From Haloferax marinisediminis (GTDB lineage: Archaea; Halobacteriota; Halobacteria; Halobacteriales; Haloferacaceae): DNA of 64,000 nt. Of the stretch, positions 1 to 61,253 are shown piece after piece. The DNA lies in contig NZ_WKJP01000001.1 in assembly GCF_009674585.1 (NCBI RefSeq), positions 2,232,001 through 2,296,000 on the forward strand, given 5' to 3'. Made by a program: the position numbers and the translations under genes. The notes beneath the pieces are model-generated. The model searched no databases and was not told the origin of the DNA. It worked only from the letters and a program-made list of their open reading frames with translations. Every line of letters starts with the position of its first letter. Positions within the stretch are counted from its first letter, which is position 1.

Positions 1-859
1 GCAGTCGGACGTTCTCGACGCCGCCACAGGCGACGACGAACTGGGCTGCTTCCTGTCGGTGTGTCTCCCCGTCGGGCGTGGTGTACGACGCGGCGACGAC
101 GCGCGCTCCCGATTCGTCGTGTTCGAGACGGCGAACGCGGGCGTGGTCGATGACGCGTGCACCCGCCGCTTCAGCCTTCTCGATGTGCGACTCGGCGGTG
201 TACTTCGCCCCTGACGGACAGACCGGTTTGCACGTTCCGTAGCCCACACACGGCGACCGGCCATCGTACGGCTCGGAGTTGCGAGCGCTTGGGACCGAGT
301 GCATGTCGATTTCGAGGCGCTCGCAGGCTTCGGCGAAGATAGAATCGGAGTGTGACGGTGGGAACGCTGGCAGAGGGTACGGGTCGTCCCGAGGCGGAGC
401 GTACGGATTGTCGACTGCCCCCGCGACCCCCAGTTCACGCTCTGCGCTGGCGTAGTACGGTTTGAGGTCGGAATACGAGATGGGCCAGTCGACGCCGACG
501 CCGTGGCGCGACGCGAGGTCGAAGTCGCGCTCGTGGAGTCGCATGACCATCCCTTGCCAGTGGAGTGTGCTCCCGCCGACACCCTTCACACGTGCGGCGT
601 TCAGTGGGTAGAACGACTCACCTGTCGACGAGAACTCGTCTCGTGGGCCACCCATCTCCCACGGGCCTCCGAGTCCGGGCCGGATGTGGCGCTCCAGTTG
701 CTCACGCCTGTCGCCGTCGAACCGCGGACCTGCTTCGAGGACGACCACGCGTGCACCCGACTCGGCGAGTCGGTGGGCGACGATACCGCCTGCGGGACCT
801 GCACCGACGATACAGACGTCTGCGTCTTCGACGGGTGTTCGGTCGTGCTCGTTAGCCAT
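1..859 (-). CDS. GMC family oxidoreductase (partial, C-terminus outside window)
   Basis: The N-terminal 286 residues are visible; the rest lies beyond the left edge. An FAD-binding dinucleotide motif GAGPAG is at residues 19-24, with the ribose-binding Glu of VVLEAGP at 42. It is followed by a GMC-type GGST(L)HW-like stretch (GVGGSTLHWQGM) and a Cys-containing CVGYGTCKPVCPSGAKYT segment. The family oxidises alcohols or sugars (glucose, gluconate, choline type) with FAD. The start overlaps the 3' end of the upstream subunit-3 gene by 8 bases, so the two are co-translated. The partner carries the Tat signal and this protein has none, which suggests export as a complex. The substrate cannot be read from the sequence. 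Confidence 0.9.
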   Translation of the reverse strand, partial: MANEHDRTPVEDADVCIVGAGPAGGIVAHRLAESGARVVVLEAGPRFDGDRREQLERHIRPGLGGPWEMGGPRDEFSSTGESFYPLNAARVKGVGGSTLHWQGMVMRLHERDFDLASRHGVGVDWPISYSDLKPYYASAERELGVAGAVDNPYAPPRDDPYPLPAFPPSHSDSIFAEACERLEIDMHSVPSARNSEPYDGRSPCVGYGTCKPVCPSGAKYTAESHIEKAEAAGARVIDHARVRRLEHDESGARVVAASYTTPDGETHRQEAAQFVVACGGVENVRL

Positions 860-1436
860 CGTCTGATTCCTCGTCGTCCGCGGGCATCTCCATCGCCGCG
901 CGTTGGTAGCTTTCTGTTCCGCCGGGGTGCCCGATTGGATTCTCGATGCCCACGAGGCGACCGCCGGTCGGCGAGGCGTAGAACGCGTAGAGCAGTTCGT
1001 TCACGACGTGGAACCGGATTCGTTCGGAGATGGTTCCATCTGGCACCGGGTCGGCAGTCGCCACACCGAGTTCACGCAGGAGCGAATCTCGCTCCTCGAC
1101 AGAGAGGTCTGAAAAGGGTGCACCGTACCAATCGCGTGCGGCGCCGTCGAGTTCGCCGACAGCCTCCCGCATCTGTGTCTCACGTTCCTCGTCGCTCACA
1201 CGCCCGTAGACGTACGTCTCAACGAACGTCGAGACACCACTCGTTTCGCTCGGAAAGACGACTTCGCCTGCGGCGACCATCGTCGGCAGGATGGCAGTCG
1301 TCGGGCGTTCGTCGCTTCCTTCAGTTCCACCTGTCTCTGCCGTCGGTGGGTCGAACCGGTCGACGGCGACTGCTCCGCTGCCGACGACACCGAGTCCGGC
1401 GAGAACCGCGAGCGCGTCCCGTCGCGTCAGTCGCAT
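852..1436 (-). CDS. Gluconate 2-dehydrogenase subunit 3 family protein (Tat-exported)
   Basis: The 194-residue protein starts with a twin-arginine signal (TRRDALAVLAGLG, Arg 5-6). The body is typical of the small gamma subunit that accompanies GMC dehydrogenases (YVYGRVSDEE, RFHVVNELLYAFYASPTGGRLVG, IENPIGHPGG). In bacterial gluconate dehydrogenases this subunit carries the export signal and pilots the flavoprotein; a cytochrome c subunit is not visible here. The ATG at 1436 is chosen because it gives the complete Tat signal and lies just downstream of the TATA-like box and iron-type palindrome. A longer reading upstream lacks any family resemblance. It is co-translated with the GMC gene (8-base overlap). 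Confidence 0.85.
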   Translation of the reverse strand: MRLTRRDALAVLAGLGVVGSGAVAVDRFDPPTAETGGTEGSDERPTTAILPTMVAAGEVVFPSETSGVSTFVETYVYGRVSDEERETQMREAVGELDGAARDWYGAPFSDLSVEERDSLLRELGVATADPVPDGTISERIRFHVVNELLYAFYASPTGGRLVGIENPIGHPGGTESYQRAAMEMPADDEESDDG

Positions 1437-1446
1437 TTGGCGGGGA

Positions 1447-1460
1447 TTAGGCCAGCCTAA
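1447..1460. promoter_or_regulatory. Iron-regulator (DtxR/SirR/Idr-type) operator palindrome
   Basis: TTAGGCCAGCCTAA is a perfect 6+6 inverted repeat (TTAGGC-CA-GCCTAA). It lies 11 bases upstream of the ATG at 1436, directly downstream of a TATA-like CATAAGTTTA on the minus strand, where a bound repressor would block transcription start. The same 14-mer occurs at 61185-61198 upstream of a cupredoxin-repeat lipoprotein. Haloarchaeal DtxR-family regulators are known to use TTAGG-type palindromes of this kind; assignment to that regulator is inference. Confidence 0.75.
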
Positions 1461-3456: not shown

Positions 3457-4173
3457 ATGGAACTCACCTGGCACGGTCACTCGACGTGGTACGTCACGGT
3501 CGGAGACACCTCACTCCTCATCGACCCGTTCTTCGACAACCCCCTTACGTCGCTCTCCCCGAGCGACATCGAGACGCCGGATTACGTCCTTCTCACGCAC
3601 GGCCACGCCGACCACATCGCCGACGCAGGCGAGTTCGACGGCGCGACGGTCGTCGGCACACCCGAGATTGTCGGCTACGTCGAAGCCGAGATGGGCGTCG
3701 ACGACACCATCGGTATGAACATCGGCGGAACCGTCGAACTCGGCGACGCGTTCGTCACGATGGTCCGCGCAGACCACACGAACGGAATCAACACGAGTTA
3801 CGAGTACGACGCGGGCATGCCGGGCGGGTACGTGATTAGCGATAAACTCCCGTCACACGAGTCCGACGACGACACGACGACGTTCTATCACGCCGGCGAC
3901 ACCGGCCTCATGACCGACATGCGCGAGATATTTGCACCGTATCTGGAACCCGACGCTGCAGCGCTCCCCGTCGGTGACCACTACACGATGGGCCCGATGC
4001 AAGCCGCAATCGCGTCCGACTGGTTGGACGTCGACCACGTGTTCCCGATGCACTACAACACGTTCCCGGCCATCGAAATCGACATCCGTGACTTCGAGCA
4101 CGAAGTGAAAGCCGCCGGCAGCAAGGCCGAAGTACACGTCCTCGAAGCAGACGAGTCGTTCACGCTCGAATAA
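3457..4173 (+). CDS. Metal-dependent hydrolase, beta-lactamase fold (UPF0173 type)
   Basis: A 238-residue metallo-beta-lactamase-fold protein. The N-terminus [13 protein letters not shown] and the metal motif THGHADH (His 48, His 50, Asp 52, His 53) match the UPF0173 / UlaG-like family. Further ligands are expected in [18 protein letters not shown] and GDHYTMGP. Members are cytosolic hydrolases of mostly unknown substrate. A TATA-like AGCTTTTTGT about 30 bases upstream of the ATG supports a leaderless start. It is a single gene, followed closely by osmC-like on the same strand. Confidence 0.88.
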
Positions 4174-58690: not shown

Positions 58691-61144
58691 TTATTCTTCG
58701 ACGACGATGGTTCCGGTCATGCCTGCAGCCTCGTGAGGGATGCAGAAGTACGGGTGTTCGCCCGCCGTCTCGAACGTGTGGACGTAGGACTGACCGGACT
58801 GGACCGCGCCCTTCTGTTCGTCCCATCCTGCTTCGGCCGCATCCTGTGACTCGAATCCACCAGAGGCCCAGTACGCTGCACCTTCGGGTAGGTCGCTCCC
58901 GATAGCGGTCACCGTGTGTGCTTCGCCAGCGGCGTGTTCGAAGGCGACCGTGTCGCCGACGTTCACTGTCAGTTCGTCGGGGTCGAAGGAGACGGCGTTC
59001 ATCTTCACGACGTGGTCCACGTCTTCGGGGACACCCTCGACGACGTTCGGTCCGCCTGAGTACGAAGTTTCACTGCCTCCGTGGTCGTGGTCGTGCGACG
59101 AGTGGTCGATAGGTGCCTTGTCGGGGGAACCGACGACAGCGAACTGTGCGCGAAGCGTCGCGGCGGCGTACGCGTTGGCCGCCGTGTCGGTCTCGGCACC
59201 CTCTTCGAGCGCACCCACGTAGGTCGAAAGTGCCTTCTCGAAACCTTCGTAGGCATCGTGGTCGGCTTCTTCGAGCGTCTCGTGGACGCGGGCTCCTTCG
59301 AACGTTTCGTAGACACCGCTCATGCGCGCAGATGCAGCGGCCGCGAGGCCTGCGTCTGCGGCGGCGGTTGCCACCACAGCGTACATCGAGTCGATGGCCT
59401 TCTGGTTGTACGTCTTGGCCGGGCCGTAGGCGTCGCCGCCTTCTTCGGCCGCAGTTCCGACTCCTTCGAGTGCGCCTTCGAACGACTTGTACAGGTCGTG
59501 GTCGGCGTGTTCGAGCGCCTCGTGGTAGCCACCGGCCCCTTCCTCGAAGAAGCCGTACGCCGACTCCACAACAGCCGCGGCGCGGTCGGTCGACCCAAGC
59601 TGTGCGAGTCCGGCCGCGTCGAATCCTCGGGCACCGAAGAACGCTGCTTCGGCGGCCGACACTTCGGCGGTCGTTCCGACTGCAGTCTCGAACTCGAAGA
59701 GCGCGTCCATCGCACCCTCGGCGTGCGTCACTGCCGACTCGGTGTCGCCTGCCGTCGCGGCGTCGACGAGACCGGCGAGGTGTTCCTCTTCGAAGCGGTG
59801 ATAGAGGTCTTCAGACTCGTGTTCGATGGCTTCGTGGAGGTTGGCTTCGTTCTCCTCGAACCGTTCGAAGAGGTGCTCGGCGACGGAGGCGGCCCGGTCG
59901 GTCGCACCGAGAGAGACGAGTTCACGAGCATCGGCGAGTCGGGCACGGAAGAACGCCGCTTCGAGGATGGTCGCCGCGTCGCCACCGACGAGTGCTGAGA
60001 CACCGGCGAGCAGGTTCTCGTCGACAGTCACGAGTGCCTCTTCGGTCGCTTCGAGGTCACCAGACTGGGCTGCTTCCTTCAGCGATTCGAGGCCACCTTC
60101 GAAGCCTTCGTACGCGTCGTGGTCGGCGTGTTCGAGAGCCTCGTGTGCGCGTGCGCCTTCGAAGTGCGCGTAGATGTCACCGGCAATCGTCGCGGCGAAG
60201 TCGGTCTCACCCTGCGCGACGAGCCACGCGACGTCGGCAGCGCGGGCGCGGTAGAGGGTGAGTGCCGACGCGTGGGCGTACTCGTCACCGGGGCCGCCGA
60301 GGCCAGCGAGGACTTCGGCGTCGAAGCCAACTGCTTGCATGAGCGCGAGGTGTCCGGCACCGCTGACGGATTTTGGGGCGACTTCGTAACTGGCATCGAC
60401 CATCGCGGTGGCGGCACTGCGAGCGGATTGGCGAATCGCGCTCGCGTCGCTCGCGTCGGCCGCGCCTTCGATGCCCGCCTCGAACGTCTCGTAGAGTTCG
60501 TGCGATGCCTCCTCGATGACTTCGTGTGCGGGCGCGTCTTCGAACGCTTCGTAGATGCTGTGTGCGAGTTCCGCCGCGGCGTCTCCTTCACCGGCGGCCG
60601 CGAGCATCTCGACGTCGCGAGCGCGGGCAGCGAAGGAAAACAGTCCCAGTGCATCGACGATTGCGGGGTCGGTGCGTCCGCGCTGGGCAGCGAGAAGGTT
60701 GTCGGCCGCTTGCATGGCGAGGTCGGTCCCCTCGTCGGCGTGGCCTTCGGAGAAGGCAGTTGCCGCACCACCGAGGTGTCGTTCGAACGTCTCGTAGTTC
60801 TGCTCGTTCGTCGCTTCCAGCTGTTCGTGCGCACTCCACTCGCCAGATGCCTGTTCGAACCGGGCGAACACGTCTTCGGCCACACGACCGGCAGTACCGA
60901 GACGGCCGGCCGAGGCGAGTGCAACCGTATCGTACAGTCGCGCACGCATGGCGTTCCACTCGGCCGCGACGGCAACCGTCGCATCGACAGTCACTGACGA
61001 GCCGGCTTCGGTTCCCTCCGCAGTCTCCGTCGCTGCCGTCTCGGATTCCGTCGAATCGTTGTTTTGGCTGCTACAACCGGCGAGGCCGGCGGATGCGACC
61101 GCGAGCCCCGTCGTCTTCAACAGCGTCCGTCGGGAGTAGTTCAT
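58691..61144 (-). CDS. DUF5059-type lipoprotein: six HE-repeats plus C-terminal cupredoxin
   Basis: An 817-residue exported protein. The signal MNYSRRTLLKTTGLAVASAG leads to lipobox Cys 24 (LAGC). Residues ~90-640 hold six repeats of a helical unit with core FE...HE...(E/H)...H-x-x-Y-x-x-FE. The HE pairs are at 106, 207, 334, 437, 541 and 621, and the first FE at 96, 201, 328, 429, 533 and 615. A His-rich linker follows (HSSHDHDH, 681-688), then a cupredoxin domain (~705-817) with ligands His 743, Cys 801, His 804, Met 809. Two iron-type palindromes overlap its promoter, so it is probably derepressed in iron shortage. It resembles the DUF5059 plus halocyanin-like group. A role in metal capture or electron transfer outside the cell is likely. 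Confidence 0.85.
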   Translation of the reverse strand: MNYSRRTLLKTTGLAVASAGLAGCSSQNNDSTESETAATETAEGTEAGSSVTVDATVAVAAEWNAMRARLYDTVALASAGRLGTAGRVAEDVFARFEQASGEWSAHEQLEATNEQNYETFERHLGGAATAFSEGHADEGTDLAMQAADNLLAAQRGRTDPAIVDALGLFSFAARARDVEMLAAAGEGDAAAELAHSIYEAFEDAPAHEVIEEASHELYETFEAGIEGAADASDASAIRQSARSAATAMVDASYEVAPKSVSGAGHLALMQAVGFDAEVLAGLGGPGDEYAHASALTLYRARAADVAWLVAQGETDFAATIAGDIYAHFEGARAHEALEHADHDAYEGFEGGLESLKEAAQSGDLEATEEALVTVDENLLAGVSALVGGDAATILEAAFFRARLADARELVSLGATDRAASVAEHLFERFEENEANLHEAIEHESEDLYHRFEEEHLAGLVDAATAGDTESAVTHAEGAMDALFEFETAVGTTAEVSAAEAAFFGARGFDAAGLAQLGSTDRAAAVVESAYGFFEEGAGGYHEALEHADHDLYKSFEGALEGVGTAAEEGGDAYGPAKTYNQKAIDSMYAVVATAAADAGLAAAASARMSGVYETFEGARVHETLEEADHDAYEGFEKALSTYVGALEEGAETDTAANAYAAATLRAQFAVVGSPDKAPIDHSSHDHDHGGSETSYSGGPNVVEGVPEDVDHVVKMNAVSFDPDELTVNVGDTVAFEHAAGEAHTVTAIGSDLPEGAAYWASGGFESQDAAEAGWDEQKGAVQSGQSYVHTFETAGEHPYFCIPHEAAGMTGTIVVEE
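59225..60877 (-). repeat. Six-fold internal protein repeat region of the cupredoxin lipoprotein
   Basis: Six related units, each about 80-127 residues, in which FE-(3-8)-HE-x-(L/I)-E-x-x-x-(H/N/E)-x-x-Y-x-x-FE recurs: QLEATNEQNYETFE, EVIEEASHELYETFE, EALEHADHDAYEGFE (unit 3), EAIEHESEDLYHRFE, EALEHADHDLYKSFE, ETLEEADHDAYEGFE. Units 3, 5 and 6 are the most alike. Paired His/Glu on facing helices could bind iron in each unit. The nucleotide level is diverged, so this is an ancient protein repeat and not recent DNA duplication. Confidence 0.85.
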
Positions 61145-61148
61145 GATT

Positions 61149-61162
61149 TTAGGCTTGCCTAA
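61149..61162. promoter_or_regulatory. Iron-type operator, proximal copy
   Basis: TTAGGCTTGCCTAA, a perfect 6+6 palindrome. It lies 5-18 bases upstream of the ATG at 61144, between the TATA-like TTTTATTAG (minus strand, about 61166-61175) and the start codon, so it covers the expected transcription start. Same consensus as 1447-1460 and 61185-61198. Confidence 0.8.
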
Positions 61163-61184
61163 ACTAATAAAAGGACTTCGATTT

Positions 61185-61198
61185 TTAGGCCAGCCTAA
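61185..61198. promoter_or_regulatory. Iron-type operator, distal copy
   Basis: TTAGGCCAGCCTAA, identical to the palindrome at 1447-1460. It lies just upstream of the TATA-like box of the cupredoxin lipoprotein gene, so the promoter is bracketed by two operators whose starts are 36 bases apart. Two sites about three and a half helical turns apart could allow two regulator dimers to bind. Confidence 0.8.
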
Positions 61199-61239: not shown

Positions 61240-61253
61240 TTTGGTCTCCCTAA
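61240..61253. promoter_or_regulatory. Imperfect third iron-type site
   Basis: TTTGGTCTCCCTAA matches TTAGGN4CCTAA in nine of ten fixed positions (T for A at position 3). It lies 42 bases upstream of the distal operator. Its inner C/G pair is also lost. It may be a weak third site or chance. Confidence 0.35.

Follow-up and report, generated by a model that had tools for sequence, protein, structure and literature searches.

The hcpE gene of Haloferax marinisediminis probably encodes an array that is induced by iron starvation and displayed at the cell surface, in which repeated helical units would bind iron and a plastocyanin-like domain would serve in electron transfer; both the iron-binding and the electron-transfer roles are putative. 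The gene lies on the minus strand at positions 58691..61144 of the window, i.e., the whole stretch of 64,000 nucleotides that was analyzed, and its open reading frame, Pfam matches, and orthologues identify the product as a DUF5059/cupredoxin lipoprotein of 817 aa (HcpE, HVO_1228 type). The initial annotation had described an exported protein of this length, in agreement with the Tat-type signal and lipobox (RR...LAGC, residues 1–24, 61073..61144, minus strand), of which R5, R6, and A22-G23-C24 are invariant in the alignment; HcpE also appears among the putative Tat lipoproteins in the literature (PMC6267482). The window protein matched DUF5059 over its full length (PF16502, E=8e-262, 870.9 bits vs. 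a curated cut-off of 25), with a Copper-bind domain on the C-terminal side (PF00127, 1.3e-14, 54.8 bits vs. a cut-off of 21.2). It is thus an ordinary member of the known DUF5059 + Copper-bind architecture. HcpE (HVO_1228) of Haloferax volcanii shares the family over its full length, has the same domain order, and is also a Tat lipoprotein, and nothing essential differs between the two genes. Identity of orthologues to the window protein was 75–80% in other Haloferax and 44–53% in other haloarchaea. The family itself was already known, and the new points are the conserved residue quintet, the repeat count, and the kinship to the outer domain of FTR1 permeases described below.

The DUF5059 family was found in 77 of the 292 sampled Halobacteria genomes, about three quarters being without it, and, among 14 control genomes, in H. 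volcanii only. No match was detected in 6 of 15 sampled Haloferax genomes, and thus the genus as a whole does not depend on the gene. It seems to be broken or split in L016, G267, G190, and G202, with frameshift-like frames or pieces on separate contigs. Short forms of about 500–520 aa (L112–L116 and L020) contain only units 1, 2, and 6; in L112–L115, Gln or His takes the place of the axial copper Met, and the genes of L112–L114 and L116 have a Thi4-like gene nearby (checked with Pfam only in L112). Neither a conserved neighborhood of DUF5059 genes across genera nor a conserved neighbor gene linking HcpE to one transporter was found. Dps/ferritin neighbors were seen only in Halohasta; in Halohasta salina (L010), the DUF5059 gene is flanked by two ferritin-like genes (155–706 and 3500–3952, both on the minus strand). 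HVO_1228 has been annotated as hcpE and named halocyanin (PMC9051519) or annotated as DUF5059 (PMC7714728), and no role was assigned to HcpE or DUF5059 in the papers found.

A profile built from 55 single DUF5059 units detected exactly six copies per protein in 11 matching genomes (that of the window and ten other haloarchaeal genomes), and repeating helical units were also visible in the AlphaFold model, confirming the number of units initially proposed. Each unit is composed of a long helix H1, a helix H2 with a terminal FE, a short helix opening with a His, and two further helices, H3 (containing Y-x2-FE) and H4. The motif previously assigned to these units, an HE pair with a His or Glu on the next helix, was mis-specified. 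The Glu directly after the His is an Asp in unit 3 in 15 of 42 orthologues, and the His or Glu opening the next helix is variable (position 629 is His in 30 of 42 orthologues; position 549 is Glu in 21 and His in 18) and is not a conserved ligand. The conserved motif is a quintet, E...H-x3-E-x6-Y-x3-E, formed by a Glu at the end of H2, a His, E(+4), Y(+11), and E(+15).

The quintets, located with the unit profile and by conservation on the minus strand, are E97 H106 E110 Y117 E121 in unit 1 (residues 58–157, 60674..60973), E329 H334 E338 Y345 E349 in unit 3 (residues 287–386, 59987..60286), E430 H437 E441 Y448 E452 in unit 4 (residues 387–491, 59672..59986), E534 H541 E545 Y552 E556 in unit 5 (residues 492–598, 59351..59671), and E616 H621 E625 Y632 E636 in unit 6 (residues 599–680, 59105..59350). 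The six repeats described initially comprise these five canonical ones and unit 2 (residues 158–257, 60374..60673, minus strand), in which the quintet is degenerate, its His being a Tyr in 17 of 42 orthologues. Units 2 and 3 are separated by an extra helix in the model (residues 258–286, 60287..60373, minus strand) that contains the invariant D275. In a set of 42 full-length orthologues, some pairs of which are as little as 43% identical, the quintet was invariant at 25/25 positions in the five canonical units; the other invariant columns included 4/59 Glu and 3/17 His, and 83/626 of all columns were invariant. For the whole protein, the AlphaFold model (15 sequences) had a pLDDT of 83.7, and residues 53–676 modeled alone reached 92.6. 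The His and Glu, and likewise the Tyr and Glu, are four residues apart, and therefore each pair lies on one helix face; the side chains of a quintet may converge in space. The invariant E-H-E-Y-E set of the five units most likely binds iron.

The units are followed by a His-rich linker (residues 681–700, 59045..59104, minus strand), which is indeed present as initially described, but it has low model confidence, is missing from several orthologues, and is thus not conserved. The C-terminal domain (residues 701–817, 58694..59044, minus strand) is a plastocyanin-type cupredoxin according to Pfam, Foldseek, and conservation. The copper-type domain proposed at the outset was borne out by the Copper-bind match and by the type-1 ligands H743, C801, H804, and M809, found in 42/42 orthologues; with His, Cys, His, and Met ligands on a cupredoxin fold, HcpE belongs to the type-1 (blue) copper proteins. 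The cupredoxin was also the only part matched by Foldseek when the whole model was used. HcpE shares the ligand pattern H, C-x2-H-x4-M with halocyanins and plastocyanin but, in contrast to them, its cupredoxin is fused to a helical array of 620 residues and is iron-controlled. A single type-1 copper site does not by itself make an oxygen-using ferroxidase.

The promoter region contains two perfect palindromes around a TATA box, as the initial annotation had noticed. The proximal iron box (TTAGGCTTGCCTAA, 61149..61162) is located between the TATA-like element and the start codon, and the distal box (TTAGGCCAGCCTAA, 61185..61198) lies 36 bp from it. The TATA-like element predicted from the sequence (TTTTATTA, 61165..61172, minus strand) spans −21 to −28 from the ATG. 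This element sits between the two boxes, an arrangement compatible with a leaderless hcpE transcript. A weak third box with three mismatches (TTAGGGAGACCAAA on the minus strand, 61240..61253) was observed further upstream, and four further Haloferax orthologues have similar sites at −108 to −111. Three box matches with at most two mismatches were detected in the window vs. 0.40 expected, and no shuffle gave three. Box scans and comparison of orthologue upstream regions showed the proximal box at −17 to −22 in 43/43 upstream regions of long-form genes and the distal box (at most three mismatches) at −52 to −57 in 42/43, the exception being L086; typical positions in the DUF5059 family are about −18 and −54. 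The distal box is absent in two of four short-form genes (L115 and L116).

Five perfect iron boxes were found in the Haloferax marinisediminis genome, one of which belongs to a near-perfect pair with the same 36-bp spacing, located upstream of the gene for a Peripla_BP_2 lipoprotein of the iron/siderophore-binding type. Another perfect box (1447–1460 of the window) lies across the start region of a gene for a Gluconate_2-dh3 subunit (ORF 852–1457, minus strand), which is followed by an ORF for a GMC-type oxidoreductase; this pair is a probable iron-controlled membrane dehydrogenase. The genome encodes two genes with an Fe-dependent repressor C-domain (Fe_dep_repr_C). With a palindrome that is conserved in orthologues and common to iron genes, the hcpE promoter places the gene in a putative DtxR-type iron-box regulon.

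Published transcriptomes of H. volcanii are in line with this assignment. HVO_1228 was upregulated (log2 4.2) alongside iucA, iucB, iucD, and iron(III) substrate-binding genes upon repression of endA (PMC7714728), and was downregulated, as were iucA and further iron genes, in a second study (PMC9051519); the main text of the paper on the low-iron proteome of H. volcanii does not mention it. The iron-box control suggested initially is supported by the conservation of the boxes in orthologues and, as an indirect sign, by this co-expression with siderophore genes.

A probable relative of the repeated unit was found in iron permeases. FTR1 permeases with N-terminal extensions appear to have in common a pattern G-x4-A-x5-6-(aromatic)-x2-3-FE ... 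E, and a profile of this N-terminal, extracytoplasmic domain (FTR1-N), made from 12 units of bacterial and archaeal FTR1 proteins with DUF5059 left out, has G19, A24, Y32, E37, E40, and E55 as invariants, that is, conserved Glu and Tyr and no conserved His. Comparison of FTR1-N with the DUF5059 unit profile by hhalign gave a probability of 90.6% (P=1.3e-6) over 67 columns, in which both the FE Glu and the Glu of the second helix were aligned. An earlier FTR1-N profile of 13 units scored 30.9 vs. at most 18.7 in 400 column shuffles and 11.3 when reversed. When the FTR1-N HMM was run on 42 DUF5059 proteins, the median was 12.6 bits, with at most 7.0 for shuffled and at most −0.1 for reversed sequences, and when 145 haloarchaeal genomes were scanned blindly in six frames, the DUF5059 gene was the top match in three (E=2.2e-4, 0.012, and 0.02). 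The HcpE units thus match FTR1-N at the sequence-profile level beyond composition, and their relationship to this domain is well supported but not proven. In the PDB, the FTR1-N profile matched designed chlorophyll proteins; these matches covered short single-helix stretches and were disregarded.

In cytochrome c/FTR1 and FTR1 iron permeases, FTR1-N spans about 95 residues and occurs in tandem in some proteins; its Gly, Ala, FE Glu, and second-helix Glu line up with those of DUF5059. A Pasteurella FTR1 permease (L122:703-2607) carries three tandem FTR1-N units before its membrane domain, and therefore the unit repeats already in FTR1. Unlike FTR1 proteins, DUF5059 proteins have His and Tyr beside Glu in their units, are fused to a blue-copper domain, and have no permease domain; the latter (PF03239, with its REGLE motif) is absent from both the window protein and this Haloferax genome. 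No solved structure of the FTR1 N-domain was found in a PDB search, and Pfam has no model for it.

The same blind scan also led to another haloarchaeal family, whose members combine a unit of the FTR1 type with a PGF-CTERM anchor (L134:581-3108, its relative L141:1391-3945, and the incomplete L135:2-1630). Two perfect iron boxes were found upstream of the L134 gene and one perfect and one near-perfect box upstream of the L141 gene; the L135 copy is cut too short to include its promoter. A Tat lipoprotein gene of the SBP_bac_6/8 type directly follows each of the three, as assigned by Pfam for the L135 copy and, for the L134 and L141 neighbors, by the sequence signature that they share with it. 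This type includes iron(III)-binding proteins. The PGF-CTERM proteins resemble HcpE in having an FTR1-N-type unit, in being exported, and in the boxes upstream (L134 and L141), but they have fewer units, no cupredoxin, an S-layer-type anchor, and an adjoining solute-binding-protein gene. A His-rich variant (HAHHPVEEYW-like) also occurs in the L134 and L141 proteins. Box pairs 36 bp apart were found for the more distant relatives L142 and L145. In L143 (724-2157, minus strand), a Tat-exported protein with His-containing repeats (FHAKHAGDYY and FHARHAPDYA) is kin to the N-terminal part of L134 and has one perfect iron box right at its gene start. When a whole PGF-CTERM protein was the query, matches were dominated by the common C-terminal anchor, and no count of carriers was taken from them.

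HcpE had initially been seen as a haloarchaeal counterpart of EfeO. Like EfeO and EfeM, it is exported and has a Tyr/His/Glu site and an iron-uptake context, and it shares with EfeO the combination of a cupredoxin with a helical His/Glu domain. It is nevertheless scarcely credible that HcpE is a true EfeO/imelysin (M75) relative with amplified units. Neither the whole protein nor any unit matched M75/imelysin in Pfam, no unit matched the hemerythrin or ferritin-like profiles against which the repeats were also searched, and a search of 295 genomes from the phylum turned up no M75 protein. The hhalign comparison of the units with EfeO gave P=0.65, and Foldseek of the helical model returned nothing at E≤0.001 and no imelysin, EfeO, or M75 structure in the top 50. 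The HxxE and GEEDRY motifs of M75 are absent from HcpE, where the conserved spacing is H-x3-E, and the domain order is reversed, the HcpE cupredoxin being C-terminal. EfeM Site III consists of Tyr, His, Glu, Glu, and Asp (PMC9174327), and therefore the likeness between HcpE and EfeM is chemical at most. From the original proposal, we retain the multi-site array, with its repeated acid/His sites, and replace EfeO by FTR1-N as the better relative. Foldseek matches of the helical part to vinculin/catenin-type bundles were weak (E≥0.03), the helical model had no match in a viral structure library, and the matches of the unit profile to PDB sequences, i.e., the designed protein 8e1e (3.7e-5) and chance helical matches, were treated as compositional.

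The main rival to the iron-binding array is an iron-sparing electron carrier, in which the copper protein would replace iron-containing carriers under iron limitation and the helical array would be a metal-free scaffold or spacer. The replacement of cytochrome c6 by plastocyanin is an established precedent for such a switch. Control by iron boxes would fit this explanation too, as would the intact plastocyanin-type domain with its four ligands in all 42 orthologues and the halocyanin name in the H. volcanii annotation (PMC9051519). We regard it as unlikely, since a scaffold leaves unexplained the 25 invariant Glu, His, and Tyr positions, the FTR1-N kinship, and the iron boxes over FTR1-unit proteins devoid of a cupredoxin. 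A heme-binding or heme-scavenging lipoprotein, with heme coordinated by the His and Tyr of each unit, is improbable: these residues are invariant in five units and can serve as axial heme ligands, and iron control is compatible with heme uptake, but three Glu per unit point to a bare metal, the relative FTR1-N conserves Glu and Tyr and no His, and no imelysin or heme-binding family was matched. Finally, the units might bind Mn, Zn, or Cu, with the gene controlled by a DtxR regulator that responds to Mn or to more than one metal. Members of the DtxR family are sensors of Fe or Mn, sets of Glu, His, and Tyr bind several metals, and the genome has two Fe_dep_repr_C genes; this reading is nonetheless highly improbable in view of the co-expression of HVO_1228 with siderophore genes, the kinship to iron permease domains, and the identical arrangement of the box pair at the Peripla_BP_2 gene.

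The iron-binding surface array is thus the reading that we favor, and it could operate as follows. When iron is plentiful, a repressor, presumably of the DtxR type, would occupy the two palindromes flanking the TATA box and block transcription; when iron is scarce, it would leave the boxes and hcpE would be transcribed. The folded protein would then be exported by the Tat pathway and lipid-anchored at the outer face of the haloarchaeal membrane, where the five canonical units may hold iron through Glu, His, and Tyr. The blue-copper domain would most likely exchange electrons with this iron, with either Fe(II) as the donor or Fe(III) as the acceptor. Because Haloferax is without an FTR1 permease, the iron would be handed to the binding protein of an iron-uptake ABC transporter as the likely partner. 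The elements of this scheme backed by computation are the architecture, the conservation, the conserved boxes, and, at the profile level, the FTR1-N kinship.

The architecture of HcpE hints at a haloarchaeal device for capturing iron that had not been assigned before. More tentatively, haloarchaea, which mostly have no FTR1 permease, may have turned the outer, iron-collecting domain of this permease into a module that stands alone and is multiplied, giving a five- or six-site surface iron relay with its own blue-copper redox partner that feeds ABC transporters. If true, this would represent a ferroxidase- or reductase-coupled route of iron uptake not described before. Iron uptake by haloarchaea in brines is poorly known beyond siderophore genes, and DUF5059, a domain present in about a quarter of the sampled haloarchaeal genomes, gains a function hypothesis with exact residues. 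The kinship would also provide a testable role, the collection of iron via Glu-rich units, for the domain at the N-terminus of FTR1 permeases, which are widespread.
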